64,000 nt of DNA from Falsigemmobacter intermedius. Lineage in GTDB: Bacteria > Pseudomonadota > Alphaproteobacteria > Rhodobacterales > Rhodobacteraceae. Below are positions 18,098 to 58,649 of the stretch, one piece after another. Under the pieces are notes generated by a model, which was not told where the DNA came from, searched no databases, and saw only the letters and a program-made list of their open reading frames with translations. The stretch spans positions 1 through 64,000 of the forward strand of contig NZ_SBLC01000014.1 of NCBI RefSeq assembly GCF_004054105.1. The letters run 5' to 3'. The first letter of the stretch is position 1. The number at the start of each line of letters is the position of its first letter. The translations under genes were made by a program, and so were the position numbers.

Positions 18098-18625
18098 TTA
18101 ATCCTGCGCGGTGCCCTGACGCTCCGCACGCGGGCGCGGCGGGGCTTCGGACTTTTTCACCGCAACCTCCAGACGCTCGGCAAAGGCGCGGCGGCGGGCG
18201 TCGTCCATGGCAATGACGTGATCGCGGATCAGCTCATTGCCCAGGGACATCCGGTCCATGGCGCGGGCCGTGATCCGGTCGGTGATCTCAGCAAAAGCCA
18301 AAGCGTCGAAGGGGACTTTCTGCAAAACCTCAAGCAGCGCGCGGCGATCGGCCATCTCAGCCTGACGCAGGCCCCGGAAATCCATGCCCCGGGCCTCGAA
18401 GGCCTGGCGCAGGGCGCGGTGATCTTCGCGCTCCAGCCCCGCCGCCCATTGACCAAAGCCCAGACGCCGCTCCGCCTGCGGCGGCTCGGGCGGCGGGCCG
18501 GAGTGGCGCAGCCAGGTGCCCAGACCCACCCCCGCCACCAGCACATTGGCCGCGAGCGACAGCGTCAGGATCCAGGTCCGCGCCCGAAGGCGCGAAGCAC
18601 GAGGGGTATTCAATGGCTCAGTCAT
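18098..18625 (-). CDS. Membrane-anchored periplasmic heavy-metal-sensor-like protein (CpxP/Spy-like)
   Basis: The product has 175 residues. An arginine-rich cytoplasmic N-terminus is followed by one transmembrane segment (WILTLSLAANVLVAGVGLGTWL, about residues 17-38), then a long helical periplasmic region rich in Arg, Glu and Ala, of the type annotated as periplasmic heavy metal sensor/CpxP-like. The ATG at 18625 has GGAAGA upstream and overlaps the preceding gene by 8 nt; an ATG at 18739 would add 38 residues read from that gene's coding DNA. It is last in the ECF sigma operon, so a role in sensing envelope or metal stress is plausible but inferred. Confidence 0.8.
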   Translation of the reverse strand: MTEPLNTPRASRLRARTWILTLSLAANVLVAGVGLGTWLRHSGPPPEPPQAERRLGFGQWAAGLEREDHRALRQAFEARGMDFRGLRQAEMADRRALLEVLQKVPFDALAFAEITDRITARAMDRMSLGNELIRDHVIAMDDARRRAFAERLEVAVKKSEAPPRPRAERQGTAQD

Positions 18626-19049
18626 CGCGGTCTTCCGTCCCCAGATCCAGCCCCAACTCCTGCGCCCAGACATCCGGGCCATCGGGCAGAAGTTCAATCG
18701 TTTCAATAAATTCAGCGTCGATATCACCGGCAATGCCAAGGCTTACGGGCTGAACCAGCCCCATCCAGACACCAGCCACAGCCGCCAGGGCAATACCCGC
18801 GAGCTGACCGGCATAAAGGCCGCCGCCAAACAGCCCCGCGAAAAAGCCCGCGATCCGGCCCCGTCCGGGACGGGCGGGCGCAGCCGCCAGCGGCGCTGCG
18901 CGGGGCTGCAATTCGGCGGCGCGCTGCAGGACCTGATCCGTCAGCGCCTCAGGCACCCTTTCAGGCTGCGCCCGGGCGGCGATGAAAAAGGCATCAAGGA
19001 AAGCATCCTCATCGTGATCTCTCAGCGATTTATCAGCGGTCATCTTCAT
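18618..19049 (-). CDS. Putative membrane anti-sigma-like protein
   Basis: The product has 143 residues: a soluble N-terminal region of about 75 residues (MKMTADKSLRDHDEDAFLDAFFIAAR begins it, in a helical acidic segment), one Gly/Ala-rich transmembrane segment near residues 80-103, and an acidic C-terminal tail ending LGLDLGTEDRDD. It overlaps the ECF sigma gene by 17 nt and so is translationally coupled to it, the usual position of an anti-sigma factor. I see no zinc-binding ZAS motif. Similar proteins are annotated inconsistently in databases. Confidence 0.7.
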   Translation of the reverse strand: MKMTADKSLRDHDEDAFLDAFFIAARAQPERVPEALTDQVLQRAAELQPRAAPLAAAPARPGRGRIAGFFAGLFGGGLYAGQLAGIALAAVAGVWMGLVQPVSLGIAGDIDAEFIETIELLPDGPDVWAQELGLDLGTEDRDD

Positions 19050-19620
19050 ACCCCAGTTCCTGCTTCTGCCCCGACAAAAGGGCGCTCAATGCACGCTTTC
19101 CGCGCGCCGTCAGACTTTCCACCGCCTCAACCCCGATCGCCATGACCTCGGCGATTTCGGGATTGCTCAGCCCTTCAAGGTGGCGCAGCACCACGGCCTG
19201 GCGCTGCCGTTCGGGCAGTTTCTGCAGCGCAGCCTCAAGGGCGGCCGCGCGGTTGGCCTCGACCATCTGCTGGAGGGCCGAGGGCGCGTCATCCTCAGGC
19301 TCGGGGGCATCTTCAAGCGCCACGCCGCCCCGCCTGCGCCGCAGCCGGTCGGTGCAGAGGTTCGCCGTCACCCGCCAGAGCCAGGTCGAGACCTGCGCCT
19401 CTCCCGAGCGCCACTCAGGCGCGATCCGCCAGAGCCGCACCATGGCCTCCTGGGCCACATCCTGCGCCTCATCGCCATCGCCGAGCATCCGCCGCCCATA
19501 GGCCAGAACCCGGGGCAGAAAGCGCCGCGCCAGCTCGCGTGCCGCCTGATCGTCGCCATTGGCATAGAGACGCAGCAGCGCCTCTTCGGAGGCCGGGCCA
19601 AGATCAGAATCCAACGCCAT
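19033..19620 (-). CDS. ECF-type RNA polymerase sigma factor
   Basis: The 195-residue product has sigma region 2 (LARRFLPRVLAYGRRML, GDEAQDVAQEAMVRLWR, STWLWRVTANLCTDRLR) and region 4 (LPERQRQAVVLRHLEGLSNPEIAEVM, then VEAVESLTARGKRALSALL), joined by an acidic linker. No region 3 is present, which defines the ECF group. It is encoded between an EF-hand protein upstream and a membrane protein plus a CpxP-like protein downstream. Its target promoter is not evident; no obvious AAC/CGT-type autoregulatory promoter was recognised. Confidence 0.93.
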   Translation of the reverse strand: MALDSDLGPASEEALLRLYANGDDQAARELARRFLPRVLAYGRRMLGDGDEAQDVAQEAMVRLWRIAPEWRSGEAQVSTWLWRVTANLCTDRLRRRRGGVALEDAPEPEDDAPSALQQMVEANRAAALEAALQKLPERQRQAVVLRHLEGLSNPEIAEVMAIGVEAVESLTARGKRALSALLSGQKQELGYEDDR

Positions 19621-19657
19621 TTTCCCTGCGCATACCGTTACAAAGCGAAAGGCAAGG

Positions 19658-19689
19658 CCCCCCGGCGAAGCTCAGCGCCCCGCCGGGGG
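19658..19689 (-). terminator. Hairpin between the EF-hand gene and the ECF sigma gene
   Basis: CCCCCGGCG (19659-19667) and CGCCGGGGG (19681-19689) form a 9-bp stem with a 13-nt loop, 7 nt after the EF-hand gene's stop. The following minus-strand sequence is only weakly T-rich, so it may be a partial terminator. Confidence 0.5.
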
Positions 19690-19695
19690 AACCTG

Positions 19696-20355
19696 TCAGT
19701 TCCCGGCCGGTTTGTCAGCCCCCGCCTCCGGGGCAGCTTCCGGGCGCGGTCCGCGCGGGCCACGCTCGCCCTCAGGACCGTGGTGGCCGTGGTGACCCTT
19801 TGCGCCATGGCGCGGGCCGCGCTCCATCCGCTTTTTCGCGGCCTCAAGCTCCTCGGCGCTCAGCACGCCGTCTTTGTCGGCATCAAGGCGCTCAAAGAAG
19901 TTCGCGTGGAAATCCCCGCCCATCGGGCCCATGGCTTTGCCGCGCGGGCCGTGGCCTTTGCCGCCTTTGGGACCAGGCCGTCCCTCAGGGGGGGCCATCA
20001 TGGCCTCAGCGGCCGAGATTTTGCCGTCGCCATCGGTGTCGAGACGATTGAAGCGACGCTCCGCCATAGCCTCGGCGCGTTTGGTGGCGCGGGCCACTGC
20101 ATCGGCCTTCATCTCTTCGAGCGTGACAAAGCCGTCCTGATCGGGATCCATAGCCTTGAGGCGCTCAAGGCGGGGGGCATCCCATTCCGCGCGGGTGATG
20201 CGGCCGTCCCCATCGGTGTCGAGCTGCATCAGCGGGGCCGGGCGCTTTGCCGGTGCCGCGCCTGCGTCCTGTGCGCTGACAGCGCCGGTTGCAAGCACGA
20301 GGGCCAGAACCGAAGCGAGAGCCGGTGCCACCGGGCGAAGGGTCTTGCTGATCAT
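19696..20355 (-). CDS. Secreted EF-hand calcium-binding protein
   Basis: The 219-residue product has a signal peptide (MISKTLRPVAPALASVLALV and onward, cleavage near VSA-QD). Four EF-hand loops are visible: DTDGDGRITRAE, DPDQDGFVTLEE, DTDGDGKISAAE and DADKDGVLSAEE, each with Asp at positions 1, 3 and 5 and a Glu near position 12. A Gly/Pro/His-rich low-complexity segment follows each pair; the C-terminus is rich in GPRP and HGHH. The ATG at 20355 has GGAG upstream. Its gene precedes the ECF sigma operon on the same strand, suggesting periplasmic Ca or metal status feeds that system; this is inference. Confidence 0.88.
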   Translation of the reverse strand: MISKTLRPVAPALASVLALVLATGAVSAQDAGAAPAKRPAPLMQLDTDGDGRITRAEWDAPRLERLKAMDPDQDGFVTLEEMKADAVARATKRAEAMAERRFNRLDTDGDGKISAAEAMMAPPEGRPGPKGGKGHGPRGKAMGPMGGDFHANFFERLDADKDGVLSAEELEAAKKRMERGPRHGAKGHHGHHGPEGERGPRGPRPEAAPEAGADKPAGN

Positions 20356-20620
20356 TTCCGTCTCCTTTTCCTCCGGGCTCATTGCCCGTCGATATCAGTC
20401 AAACGCGGCCCGGACGGCTTTCCGTCGAAACTGTCGTAAAAAAATTTGCAGGGGGCGTCAGAACAGCTTTTCCGCCGCGAAAGGGATGCAGGAAGAACGC
20501 AAGGACCATCTGCCCGGAAAACAGGCTATTGCGGCACCTTGCCGCAGTCTGGCACAAGCAGGATGCGCTATGCCTTCGGGCAACCCATATGCGTTCAGGA
20601 CCTGAGGGAAAGGCATTACC

Positions 20621-22711: not shown

Positions 22712-22860
22712 CTAAAACCCCTGTCGCCGCACATCGGCCGCCCCGGCCCTGCGGGCGCTCCGGCTCCGCGCAACGAATTGTTAACCAATCGGCGGCAAGG
22801 TGACCCAAAGGCGGAGCCAAGGCAAGGCTCCGGGGCCCTGAGCGGAGGAAACTGACCCGG

Positions 22861-24213
22861 ATGCTGCGCCGCGTGCTGATCATAGATGAGGTGGCACCGC
22901 GCCGGATCCGGCTTCAGGCGGGACTTCAGGCCGCCTGTTATGAGGTGCGCTCCGCCTGCGGTCTGGCGGAAGGGCTGGCACTTCTGCGCGGCCCCCCGGC
23001 CGATCTGGTTCTCCTCAGCGGCGGGTTGATCACGGGGCCCTCGGCCTGCGATCTTCTGCGCCGAAGGGCCGGGCAACCTGGCCTGCCGATCCTCGCGCTG
23101 CTGCAACAGGGAGAGGGGGAGGCCCGGGTCAGGGTGCTGCTGGCGGGGGCCAGCGAGGTGCTGCCCGAGGATGCATCTGCCCATTTTCAGCTGGCACAGA
23201 TCCGCAGCTTTCTGCGCCAGAGCAGCGGCCCGCGCGCGCTTTATGACGAGATGCCGGACGGCTTTTGCGAGGCTCCGCCGGGCCTTGAGCGTCCCTCTCT
23301 CATCGCTGTTGTGGGCCCCGAAGCCCGGGCAGAATCCTGGTGCCGCAGCCTGCGACCCTTTCTTGCGCCGCATCGCCTGACGCCACTCTCGCGCCGAAGT
23401 CTCCTTGAGCGGGAGGATCTTTCCCCCGACGCCCTCCTCCTCTGCGCCGCCCCCGGCGCGGAGGAGGCCCCGGGCCTTCTGGCTGATCTTCTCGCCCGGC
23501 GCGGGCCGGCGGCTGCGCCCCTGGTCCGGATCAGCCCCTCAGGCACGGCGGCGCAGGATGCGGCGGCGCTTGATCTTGGGGCGGATGCGGTGCTGCCCGC
23601 GGTGGTCACCCCTCTGGAAGCAGCAACCCGGCTGCGCCGGCTGATCGGGCGGCGGCTGCGCAATGAAACGCGGATGCGCCTTTTGCACGACGGGCTGCGC
23701 CTTGCCCTAACCGATCCGCTCACCGGCCTCAGCAACCGGCGCCACGCCCTGCCAGCGCTGTCGCGCATGCTGAGAGAGACCGGGCCGGGGGGCACGGACT
23801 GCGCGGTGATGCTGCTGGATCTCGACCATTTCAAACAGGTGAATGACACTTTTGGCCATGCCGCAGGCGATGATGTGCTGACCGAAGTGGCCCGCCGCCT
23901 GCGCAGCGGCCTTGAGCCGGATGACCTGATCGCGCGCTATGGCGGCGAGGAATTTCTGATCGCCGCAAAGCTTGGCGCGGGCCGCGATCCGCTGGCTCTG
24001 GCGGACCATCTGCGCTGCGCCCTTGCCCTGCGGCCGATCCCCCTGCCCGCAGAGCGCCGCTCGCTTCCCGTCACCGCCTCCATCGGCCTGGCGCTGAGCC
24101 GCGGTGCCGCCTGTCTGGCCGATGAGATGCTCAAAAGGGCGGACGAGGCTTTGCTGAGCGCGAAACGCCAGGGCCGCAATCAGGTCTGTCTTGCCCGTCA
24201 GCTTGCGGCCTGA
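22861..24213 (+). CDS. PleD-like diguanylate cyclase with two degenerate receiver domains
   Basis: The product has 450 residues: two receiver-like domains (about 1-120 and 140-260) followed by a GGEEF cyclase domain. The phospho-acceptor Asp is missing in both: PADLVLLSGG has Ser and PDALLLCAA has Cys at the expected place. The cyclase signature RYGGEEFLI near residues 359-367 is intact, with DLDHFKQVNDTFGHAAGDD. The inhibitory RxxD I-site five residues before GGEEF reads EPDD, so product inhibition is probably lost. It would make c-di-GMP constitutively or under non-phosphorylation control. GGAGGAA precedes the ATG. Confidence 0.92.
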   Translation: MLRRVLIIDEVAPRRIRLQAGLQAACYEVRSACGLAEGLALLRGPPADLVLLSGGLITGPSACDLLRRRAGQPGLPILALLQQGEGEARVRVLLAGASEVLPEDASAHFQLAQIRSFLRQSSGPRALYDEMPDGFCEAPPGLERPSLIAVVGPEARAESWCRSLRPFLAPHRLTPLSRRSLLEREDLSPDALLLCAAPGAEEAPGLLADLLARRGPAAAPLVRISPSGTAAQDAAALDLGADAVLPAVVTPLEAATRLRRLIGRRLRNETRMRLLHDGLRLALTDPLTGLSNRRHALPALSRMLRETGPGGTDCAVMLLDLDHFKQVNDTFGHAAGDDVLTEVARRLRSGLEPDDLIARYGGEEFLIAAKLGAGRDPLALADHLRCALALRPIPLPAERRSLPVTASIGLALSRGAACLADEMLKRADEALLSAKRQGRNQVCLARQLAA

Positions 24214-24284
24214 CGGGCCTCTTCGCGCTTTCTTAACGGATGCGGCGCAGACTGACATAGGCGGCTCGGATCTGAAGGATGGAT

Positions 24285-24869
24285 ATGCTTGGCCTCGTCA
24301 ATCGCGCCCTGCGCAGCTTTCTGCGCGATATGCACAGTGACAGCCTCTGGCAGCAGGTGGCGGGGGACTGCGCGCTCGGGCCGGAACCATTTGAGGCACT
24401 CCTGCCCTATGAAGATGCCCTCAGCTACGCGATTCTCACCGCCGCTTCTGAGCGGCTGAACCGGCCTGAGGCCGCAATCCTTGAGGATTTCGGACAATGG
24501 CTTGTCACCTCACAGACGGGTCTGCCGCTGCGGCGGCTGCTGCGGTTCGGCGGCCGCAGTTTCACCGACTTTCTGTGGTCACTTGAAGAGCTGCCGGACC
24601 GCGCGCGCCTTGCTTTTCCGCTGATCCGCCTTCCCGATGTCCGCCTGTCAGAGGGGAGAGAGGCGACTTTTGTGCTGCGCTGCGCAGAGCCCTTCGCCTT
24701 CACGCCGATTCTGAAGGGGGTGATCGACGTCATGGCGGATGACTACGGCGCCCTGATCCTGAGCGAGGCAGTCCCCGCCGCCTCCGGCAGGGGTGAGATC
24801 CGGGTGCAGCTGCATCTGGACAACTTCACCAACGGACAGCGCTTCGATCTGGCCGGAGAGCGGCTTTGA
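24285..24869 (+). CDS. H-NOX-like (heme NO-binding fold) protein lacking heme-ligand residues
   Basis: The 194-residue product has the H-NOX fold: start MLGLVNRALRSFLRD, FGQWLVTSQTGLPLRRLLRF, FTDFLWSLEEL and DDYGALILSEA. The position of the proximal His (LH in canonical members) reads LP (EELPDRARLAF), and the YxSxR heme-propionate motif reads LRCAE. Both hallmarks are therefore lost and heme binding by the normal route is unlikely. The ATG at 24285 gives the canonical M-x-G-L start; an ATG two codons earlier has no room for the ribosome-binding site. It lies between two diguanylate cyclase genes, which suggests a signalling partner role. Confidence 0.85.
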   Translation: MLGLVNRALRSFLRDMHSDSLWQQVAGDCALGPEPFEALLPYEDALSYAILTAASERLNRPEAAILEDFGQWLVTSQTGLPLRRLLRFGGRSFTDFLWSLEELPDRARLAFPLIRLPDVRLSEGREATFVLRCAEPFAFTPILKGVIDVMADDYGALILSEAVPAASGRGEIRVQLHLDNFTNGQRFDLAGERL

Positions 24870-24899
24870 ACCGGATAACACGCCCCCCCTGATGTCCCG

Positions 24900-25904
24900 G
24901 TGGCAGCGATTCAGATCCTGCCTGAGATGCTCGGGCGGCTGATGCCGATGGCGCTGACCCTAGACCGCCGGGGGCGGGTGCGATTTCCTGGCCCGGCCAT
25001 ACCGCGACTGCTGCCCGCGCTGACGGAGGGGGCAGAGTTTTTCGACCTGATCCGGATCAGCCATCCGCAGCAGATCACGACACTCGCCGGACTGCGCGAC
25101 TGCGGCCCGCGCGGACTGCGTCTGCACAGCCGCGACCGGCCTGAAGCGACGCTGCGCGCGCTGGCGGTCCCGCTGGCCGATGGCGGGGCGCTGGTCAATT
25201 TCGCCCTCGGCATCGACCTGCCCCAGGCTGTCCGGCGTCATGACCTCACGGTCGCGGACTTCGCGCCGACAGATCCTGCGATGGAGCTGCTGTTTCTGAT
25301 CGAAGCCAACAGCCTCGTCACCGCTGAGCTGACCGGACTGACCCGCCGCCTTCAGCGCGCACGCAGAGCCGCGGAAAGCCAGGCGCACAGCGACGCGCTG
25401 ACCGGGCTTGGCAATCGCCGCGCCGCCGATGACATGCTGGAGGCGCTTCTGGGGGGTGCGGCACCCTTCGGCGTCCTTCACCTCGATCTCGATCACTTCA
25501 AAAAGATCAACGACAGCTTCGGACATGCGGCCGGGGACGCTCTGTTGCGGCATGTGGGGCAGATTTTACAGGGCGAAGCCCGCGACAGCGATTTATCCGC
25601 CCGGATCGGTGGCGACGAATTTCTGCTTCTGCTGCCGGGGCTGAGCGACAGTGCCGCCCTTTCGCGCCTTGCAGATCGCCTGCTCAGCCGGCTGACCCGT
25701 CCGCTGCGCTGGCAGGACCGCCTGCTGACCGCCTCGGCAAGCATCGGCTTTGTGATCGCCCCGCCCGGCGCTACCGCCGCAGGGGTTCTGGCCGTGGTGG
25801 ATGAGGCGCTTTATCACGCCAAAAGGGCGGGCGGAGGCCGCACCGCCCGCGCTGCCGACCCTGCGAGTGAGGTTGCGGGCCCAAAGACGCCGCCATCGGA
25901 CTGA
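24900..25904 (+). CDS. Diguanylate cyclase with an HNOBA-like sensor domain
   Basis: The 334-residue product begins with a region resembling the heme-NO-binding-associated (HNOBA) domain (RVRFPGPAIPRLLPALTEGAEFFDL). A coiled coil (TGLTRRLQRARRAAESQ) and a GGDEF domain follow, with HSDALTGLGNRRAAD, DLDHFKKINDSFGHAAGDA and RIGGDEFLLLL. The I-site RDSD, five residues before GGDEF, is intact, unlike the upstream cyclase. The GTG at 24900 is the first in-frame start; no clear ribosome-binding site is seen and an ATG at 24927 is possible. It is 30 nt after the H-NOX-like gene, the standard H-NOX/HNOBA pairing. Confidence 0.88.
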   Translation: MAAIQILPEMLGRLMPMALTLDRRGRVRFPGPAIPRLLPALTEGAEFFDLIRISHPQQITTLAGLRDCGPRGLRLHSRDRPEATLRALAVPLADGGALVNFALGIDLPQAVRRHDLTVADFAPTDPAMELLFLIEANSLVTAELTGLTRRLQRARRAAESQAHSDALTGLGNRRAADDMLEALLGGAAPFGVLHLDLDHFKKINDSFGHAAGDALLRHVGQILQGEARDSDLSARIGGDEFLLLLPGLSDSAALSRLADRLLSRLTRPLRWQDRLLTASASIGFVIAPPGATAAGVLAVVDEALYHAKRAGGGRTARAADPASEVAGPKTPPSD

Positions 25905-58324: not shown

Positions 58325-58400
58325 TGGTGCCCGGAGACGGATTCGAACCGCCGACACGCGGATTTTCAATCCGCTGCTCTACCAACTGAGCTATCCGGGC
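58325..58400 (-). tRNA. tRNA-Phe (anticodon GAA), copy 1
   Basis: Read on the minus strand from 58400: acceptor GCCCGGA pairs with TCCGGGC and an encoded ACCA follows. D-arm, anticodon stem GCGGA/TCCGC with GAA (58365-58367), variable loop and T-arm GGTTCGAATCC are complete, 76 nt. It is identical to copy 2. A promoter TGGACA (58457-58462) - 17 bp - TATGTA (58434-58439) lies 33 nt upstream. Confidence 0.97.
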
Positions 58401-58573
58401 ACTCTGCAGCAGCCTGAGCCACTGTCTGCGCTCTACATAGCCAAAGGGCGGCGGGCTGTCCAGCGCAGAATGCATCTAAGTGTCGGGTCAGATTGAAAAA
58501 TCTGCGCGACGAGACAGAAAGGAAAAGCGTCCCTTCAGGGTGTCGTTACGATCTGTAATGCATGGGTAAGAAA

Positions 58574-58649
58574 TGGTGCCCGGAGACGGATTCGAACCGC
58601 CGACACGCGGATTTTCAATCCGCTGCTCTACCAACTGAGCTATCCGGGC
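58574..58649 (-). tRNA. tRNA-Phe (anticodon GAA), copy 2
   Basis: It is identical over 76 nt to copy 1, with encoded CCA. Its own promoter reads TGGACA (58706-58711) - 17 bp - TATTAC (58683-58688), again ending exactly 33 nt before the tRNA. The two copies are 173 bp apart with otherwise unrelated spacer sequence, so each is a separate transcription unit. Confidence 0.97.

Follow-up and report, generated by a model that had tools for sequence, protein, structure and literature searches.

A histidine-less H-NOX-like protein paired with a GGDEF cyclase in Falsigemmobacter intermedius: a candidate heme-independent regulatory subunit

What is left for an H-NOX protein to do when the histidine that would ligate its heme is missing, while a cyclase gene still stands beside its own? 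This question is raised by a 64,000-nucleotide stretch of Falsigemmobacter intermedius DNA (contig NZ_SBLC01000014.1, positions 1 to 64,000), hereafter the window. At 22861-25904 it holds three intact open reading frames, all on the plus strand, for a PleD-like cyclase (P0001), an H-NOX-like protein (P0002) and a GGDEF cyclase (P0003); the row of three genes described in an earlier reading of the sequence alone, here called the original prediction, was thus found again. We favour, with moderate confidence, the explanation that the H-NOX-like protein regulates the adjacent HNOBA-GGDEF diguanylate cyclase as a subunit that works independently of heme. In our analysis this is based on the fold of a predicted model, the loss of heme ligands, the gene pairing, the co-inheritance of both genes and a TTAA element upstream, together with a deletion phenotype in print for Paracoccus denitrificans.

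Fold and heme-ligand positions of the H-NOX-like protein

The H-NOX-like gene and the features within it are:

24285..24869, plus strand: H-NOX-like protein P0002, 194 amino acids, of a His-less subfamily published as Group 5 (Pfam HNOB, fold, subfamily motifs)
24531..24554, plus strand: RRLLRFGG, subfamily motif of P0002 (conservation across 45 sequences)
24594..24596, plus strand: codon of Pro104, at the proximal-His column, i.e. His105 of Nostoc H-NOX (pairwise and profile alignments)
24681..24695, plus strand: CAEPF, in place of the YxSxR motif of P0002 (alignment columns)
24735..24749, plus strand: ADDYG, subfamily motif of P0002 (conservation across 45 sequences)

A second in-frame ATG is present at 24279. 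Regarding the fold, P0002 matches Pfam HNOB (PF07700) with 62.3 bits at a curated cut-off of 25.5, and it also matches Nostoc H-NOX by sequence. An AlphaFold model was obtained with a mean predicted local distance difference test (pLDDT) score of 89. The best Foldseek match of this model was Nostoc H-NOX (2o09), with a template modelling (TM) score of 0.80. In VIA-align comparisons, the H-NOX domain of the beta subunit of human soluble guanylate cyclase (sGC; 8hbf_B) reached Z 20.8 with a root mean square deviation of 2.0 over 175 residues and was tied with Nostoc H-NOX, with Z values of up to 20.0. By its predicted model, P0002 is a member of the H-NOX fold, as had been proposed. A chance match was rejected because the Pfam score, the fold and the partner gene all agree.

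The heme-ligand positions were examined in the alignments. The Leu-His pair of Nostoc H-NOX corresponds to Leu103-Pro104 of P0002 in the pairwise and the subfamily-profile alignments alike, and Pro104 sits within the predicted helix 93-110. A misalignment with the histidine one step off was rejected, as this helix contains no histidine and both kinds of alignment are concordant. The Tyr, Ser and Arg columns of the YxSxR motif are occupied by C133, E135 and F137. Both ligand losses of the original prediction, LP in place of LH and the missing YxSxR motif, are therefore confirmed at the level of the alignment. It can fairly be inferred from these columns that P0002 would not bind heme in the usual way.

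The subfamily and its cyclase partner across relatives

The original prediction had allowed for the possibility that relatives keep all ligands and that this copy is an isolated variant. To describe the relatives, we used an alignment of the divergent kind with 144 non-redundant sequences, window included. Its rows score above 85 bits against P0002, with none between 90 and 62 bits; 140 of them are Rhodobacterales records or belong to the family of the window, three are named only as Alphaproteobacteria and one is the window. Row L213 was left out, its start not being recognised. The family survey covered 295 genomes, about one per genus, and the named-record set consisted of the best 80 of at least 573 relatives. 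A set of 80 regions was taken by coordinates and comprised three genus regions, the best listed HNOB matches (about 74 bits or more) and some canonical H-NOX; as these regions came from the best listed matches, from about 74 bits upwards, weak matches like the window's 62 bits are under-represented.

At the proximal-His column, the 144 rows show Pro in 113, His in 10, Gln in seven, Asn in three, Gly and Thr in two each, one each of Tyr, Ser, Arg, Glu and Ala, and gaps in two. All 10 canonical comparison sequences carry His there. With 113 prolines and 10 histidines among 142 residues, an isolated decayed copy among ligand-keeping relatives was rejected. The window copy is an ordinary, though fast-changing, member of its subfamily, and loss of the ligand is the usual state in its bacterial group. 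The Tyr of YxSxR is kept in none of the 144 rows, 88 of which have Cys at this column, including C133 of the window. Other columns recur as histidine, namely 2 (129 of 144 rows), 76 (98), 98 (92), 162 (74) and 141 (72), and in the window copy these read L2, S76, W98, A162 and P141. Regarding the subfamily motifs, R87 and G90 of RRLLRFGG and D152 and Y154 of ADDYG are invariant in 45 sequences, with R83, R84, A151, D153 and G155 conserved in at least 90%; the canonical sequences compared read differently at both motifs.

On a quick tree, the distribution of His and non-His takes 11 changes, a count that is blind to gain versus loss and could not be higher with 10 His rows and the outgroup; there is therefore no sign of the histidine being inherited as a conserved ligand. 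In this tree 64 of 147 inner branches are weakly supported, and a long-branch warning concerns L048 versus the outgroup.

HNOB matches were present in 221 of the 295 family genomes. Among the HNOB matches listed, 29 exceed 95 bits, 27 of them canonical-type and two (L028, L030) divergent, and most of the lower-scoring loci retrieved are of the divergent kind. As a separate case of ligand loss, a canonical-type, non-divergent H-NOX at L029 1501-1977 has Gln at the His position (ELQAEV). In a sample of 385 genomes of the class, with at most eight candidates scored per genome, 11 matches to the subfamily profile were found. Five are in the window's family, including the window's own and one canonical H-NOX (G294); the six from other families all have His at the column (L228 being truncated). 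The closest relatives among the best 80 of the at least 573 named records are those of Gemmobacter megaterium (50% identity) and G. nectariphilus (51%).

The partner gene carries the following features:

24900..25904, plus strand: P0003, diguanylate cyclase with an HNOBA-like domain at its N-terminus, then a long helix and a GGDEF domain (predicted model, N-terminal profile)
25581..25592, plus strand: RDSD I-site of P0003 (R228 and D231 the same in all 45 aligned cyclases)
25608..25622, plus strand: GGDEF active-site motif of P0003 (invariant in the same 45 cyclases)

Both motifs are intact in P0003. In its model (pLDDT 93.9), an N-terminal domain of mixed alpha/beta type is followed by a long helix (126-162) and a GGDEF domain. 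The original prediction had named this protein an HNOBA-GGDEF partner kept beside the H-NOX-like gene. In the case of the label, P0003 alone gave no Pfam HNOBA match at E values up to 1. Such a match was found, at E values up to 0.1, in 40 of the 45 members of its alignment (P0003 among those without), and a profile of the P0003 N-terminal region matches solved HNOBA/PAS domains, namely those of a Nostoc kinase (2p04) and sGC beta. Structure comparison of the P0003 model was dominated by GGDEF-containing chains and is little informative on the N-terminal domain. The assignment of an HNOBA-like N-terminus thus holds through the relatives and the N-terminal profile.

The partnership itself was borne out. 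Of 142 loci for which 1000 bases or more were available downstream, 141 have a P0003-like gene directly behind on the same strand, the exception being L150. Among the 295 family genomes, 211 have both HNOB and an HNOBA-type N-terminus, 10 have HNOB alone, two HNOBA alone (G028, G111) and 72 neither (Fisher p about 6e-55, in a test that takes the genomes as independent). Regarding the HNOB-only genomes (G017, G057, G101, G211, G220, G223, G232, G242, G257 and G287), the single match of G057, G211, G223, G232, G242 and G257 exceeds 120 bits and is of the canonical kind, and in G017 neither locus falls within the divergent set. In Phaeobacter sp. G2 (L240), an H-NOX-like/GGDEF pair is carried by a plasmid of 120 kb, where it follows HAD and trimethylamine methyltransferase genes.

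Upstream of the genes, two short elements were noted:

24233..24237, plus strand: TTAAC, half-site-like promoter element 52 bases before the P0002 start (upstream conservation)
22781..22787, plus strand: TTAACCA upstream of the pleD-like gene, a candidate CtrA half-site (sequence inspection)

In 135 of 144 sequences a TTAA precedes the H-NOX-like start by 35-75 bases, and in 115 of these by 44-53 bases, in a count made without a shuffle control. TTAAC was found within 200 bases upstream, on either strand, in 103 of 144 sequences, as compared to a mean of 22 in base-shuffled sequences and to 16 in the first 200 bases of the genes. The H-NOX-like and cyclase genes probably have a promoter of their own, and TTAAC may represent a CtrA site. 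In the literature consulted, the HNOX gene of Dinoroseobacter shibae is listed in the CtrA regulon (PMC7232146) and CtrA is reported to regulate rcc02629 of Rhodobacter capsulatus (PMC9143464). According to PMC6473078, quorum sensing induces hnox and dgc1; in the part consulted, a CtrA site is named only for dgc2. The promoter primer of R. capsulatus rcc02630, as printed, gave no match with up to two mismatches across the 295 genomes.

Published systems and the proposed mechanism

The main facts described so far, i.e. a His-less subfamily, its cyclase pairing and a deletion phenotype, are already in print, and the novelty implied by the original prediction did not survive comparison with the literature. 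A 2022 review (PMC8738867) describes a "Group 5" of H-NOX proteins with less than 10% proximal His, mostly Pro, and GGDEF neighbours, and poses as a question how this group senses. By this published description the window protein belongs to Group 5, as it resembles P. denitrificans HnoX, carries Pro at the His column and has a GGDEF neighbour. It differs in being fast-evolving and in lacking the other recurrent histidines too. The review, in the part consulted, reports no conserved Cys for Group 5, whereas our alignment has the recurrent Cys at the former Tyr column. A zinc-cysteine redox switch, as in the heme-free H-NOX of Vibrio cholerae, was rejected on account of this statement and of P0002 having only Cys29 and Cys133.

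In the case of P. denitrificans, PMC5588039 describes a His-less H-NOX beside a cyclase gene, and another His-less H-NOX in Rhodobacter sphaeroides. The hnoX mutant of P. denitrificans is reported there to form less biofilm and no BapA, and the dgcAB mutant to form more biofilm; the authors interpret the reduced biofilm as the result of DgcA being freed from inhibition by H-NOX. The original prediction had offered that P0002 may sense something else or act only as a scaffold; by the phenotype in P. denitrificans, a His-less member is not inert. In our comparison, a P. denitrificans protein of another strain (HAMBI 2443 record) falls in the subfamily, with Pro at the column, the subfamily motifs and an HNOBA-like GGDEF frame behind it. 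The gene order of the HnoX-DgcA pair is the same as in the window, and P0002 is 34% identical to HnoX. The differences are that genetics are published for HnoX, while the window pair is known from sequence alone, and that the receiver-GGDEF cyclase of P. denitrificans (Pden_3982) has a distant gene number, whereas the PleD-like gene of the window is adjacent.

D. shibae DFL 12 is represented in the survey by G035 (6000 bases of one contig are 100% identical to its plasmid). Its H-NOX, reported to detect nitric oxide (NO) and to inhibit Dgc1 (PMC7232146), is the sole HNOB match of that genome and belongs to the same subfamily and the same kind of gene pair. Unlike the window copy, it keeps the proximal His and reads CxWxR, with C, W and Arg at the Y, S and R columns. 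With sGC, the window pair has in common the H-NOX fold and the HNOBA/PAS sequence profile; sGC is however a single polypeptide with a guanylate cyclase, and the window has two genes and a GGDEF domain. The H-NOX domain of sGC alpha is reported to bind no heme (PMC6839917). Our literature search did not find the near-complete co-inheritance of the pair, the scattered histidines on a weak tree, the conserved upstream TTAA, the subfamily membership of the NO sensor reported for D. shibae or the loosening described below.

In the mechanism that we propose, the H-NOX-like protein would dock on the HNOBA (PAS-like) domain and the long helix of the cyclase, by analogy to sGC beta H-NOX on its PAS domain and coiled coil. 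It would most likely restrain the cyclase. The H-NOX-like protein would use no histidine-ligated heme, being presumably heme-free, and could be modulated by another ligand, by a thiol change or by its own abundance alone. The gene pair would be run from its own promoter, possibly under CtrA control.

Several published observations weigh against such a heme-independent subunit. As the D. shibae member keeps its histidine and is reported to be NO-responsive, heme may still be in use in some of the group. In the case of P. denitrificans, NO is proposed by the authors as the signal that stimulates the inhibition of DgcA by H-NOX, and the hnoX mutant is reported to consume NO faster (both PMC5588039); direct measurement of cyclic di-GMP (c-di-GMP) in this species failed (PMC12582929). 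In addition, a solved structure is titled as an H103G mutant H-NOX in the Fe(II)CO state, which means that loss of the histidine alone does not exclude heme.

These observations could imply that heme and NO are still bound through another ligand, e.g. the Cys at the old Tyr column or one of the other recurrent histidines, and that the protein is a normal NO sensor. Both kinds of residue are frequent in the subfamily and C133 is present in the window; D. shibae is reported, and P. denitrificans proposed, to respond to NO through H-NOX. The window copy however lacks all of the recurrent histidines and has no cysteine besides Cys29 and Cys133; no candidate residue is universal, yet the gene pair is kept, and NO is reported to stimulate biofilm of P. 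denitrificans in hnoX mutants too (PMC5588039). Altogether we hold a normal NO sensor to be decidedly unlikely. Alternatively, the empty heme pocket may take up another small molecule, and the protein may thereby sense a new signal. This would agree with the kept fold, with the hinge glycines reported as conserved in all H-NOX groups (PMC8738867) and with the conservation of RRLLRFGG and ADDYG at places that read differently in the canonical sequences compared. As no ligand is known and the conserved motifs may equally form a surface for partner contact, this explanation appears improbable to us.

The pair could also be vestigial in this Gemmobacter-like lineage, drifting after having lost importance. 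The module does seem to be loosening here, one sign being the degenerate receiver of the PleD-like protein. In G295, the nearest of four other genomes of the genus searched (PheS 99.4% identical to that of the window), no P0002 match was found genome-wide. Neither pair gene lies between the pleD-like gene and pheS (L230 7318-7919), the partner having been sought at this locus only, and the 800 bases concerned contain no significant remnant of either gene (best tblastn E 0.16). The window H-NOX-like protein shares 50-52% identity with its counterparts in G234, G296 and G297, which among themselves reach 77-82% (PheS 90-91%), and its end branch on the quick tree is 1.22, versus 0.11-0.19 for three Gemmobacter-type sisters. 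It has changed 12 of 62 conserved columns, the second most of 142 rows (median 3). The ratio of nonsynonymous to synonymous substitution rates (dN/dS, by a simple counting script) of the PleD-like gene is 0.28, the highest of 13 genes, with 0.008-0.17 for the 12 neighbours. This ratio is nevertheless well below 1, and RRLLRFGG, ADDYG and the upstream TTAAC are kept. Since GGDEF, the I-site of P0003 and all three frames are also intact, decay is not demonstrated, and we regard a vestigial pair as unlikely.

Returning to the regulatory subunit, a wider interpretation can be put forward only tentatively, with somewhat less than even weight. In most of the bacterial family, a heme NO sensor may have become an obligate, heme-free diguanylate cyclase subunit, as a two-gene counterpart of sGC alpha H-NOX. 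Histidine at the old column would then vary freely, and the D. shibae NO sensor would be a local reversion and not the ancestral type. These proteins are named heme NO-binding in annotation, and some papers treat them as NO sensors. As most members compared lack the heme ligand, it should not be presumed that NO controls c-di-GMP throughout Rhodobacteraceae. Through the near-complete co-inheritance of the pair, the published question of sensing becomes a protein-protein question that is testable in P. denitrificans, and the His-keeping exception of D. shibae offers a ready comparison.

The upstream PleD-like gene and the rest of the window

The first gene of the row has these features:

22861..24213, plus strand: PleD-like cyclase P0001, with two receiver-like domains, neither with the acceptor Asp, then a GGEEF domain
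23017..23019, plus strand: codon of the Ser of P0001 that aligns with the acceptor Asp53 of PleD (alignments to PleD)

P0001 matches Pfam GGDEF with 136.7 bits and has one Response_reg match of 23 bits, below the cut-off of 30.2. Relative to a PleD reference sequence, its first receiver shows D9, E10 (D10E), S53, L83 (T83L) and E105 (K105E), the acceptor column of its second receiver is Cys, its I-site reads E-P-D-D and its GGEEF motif is intact. A weak alignment of the first receiver to the deposited PleD sequence (17.8 bits) gave the same Ser and Glu. Both the Ser and Cys substitutions and the difference between the I-sites, EPDD here and RDSD in P0003, agree with the original prediction. 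The receiver and GGEEF layout is shared with Caulobacter PleD, from which P0001 differs by the missing Asp53 and Lys105 of the first receiver and by the lost Arg of the I-site. The second receiver of Caulobacter PleD is likewise not known to carry an acceptor, so this feature is not unusual by itself.

In its own genome, P0001 is the only match that spans the entire protein. Across the loci, a PleD-like gene lies within 4.2 kb upstream of the pair in 55 of 126 with room, 53 on the opposite and two on the same strand, and was not found in the other 71. It immediately precedes the pair, in the same orientation, in the window, G234, G296 and G297, some of which are too short upstream for the 126-locus count. 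Asp53 is absent from 27 of the 55 PleD-like proteins in the loci, those of the window and of G295 included; acceptor-less PleD-like cyclases are therefore common here. The window copy additionally lacks Lys105 and the I-site Arg.

As a whole, profile searches of the genome holding the window gave one HNOB match and 11 GGDEF matches. Elsewhere in the window, a gene block on the minus strand at 18098-20382 encodes Metal_resist, ECF sigma factor and EF-hand proteins, and two adjacent tRNA-Phe (gaa) genes are located at 58325-58649.

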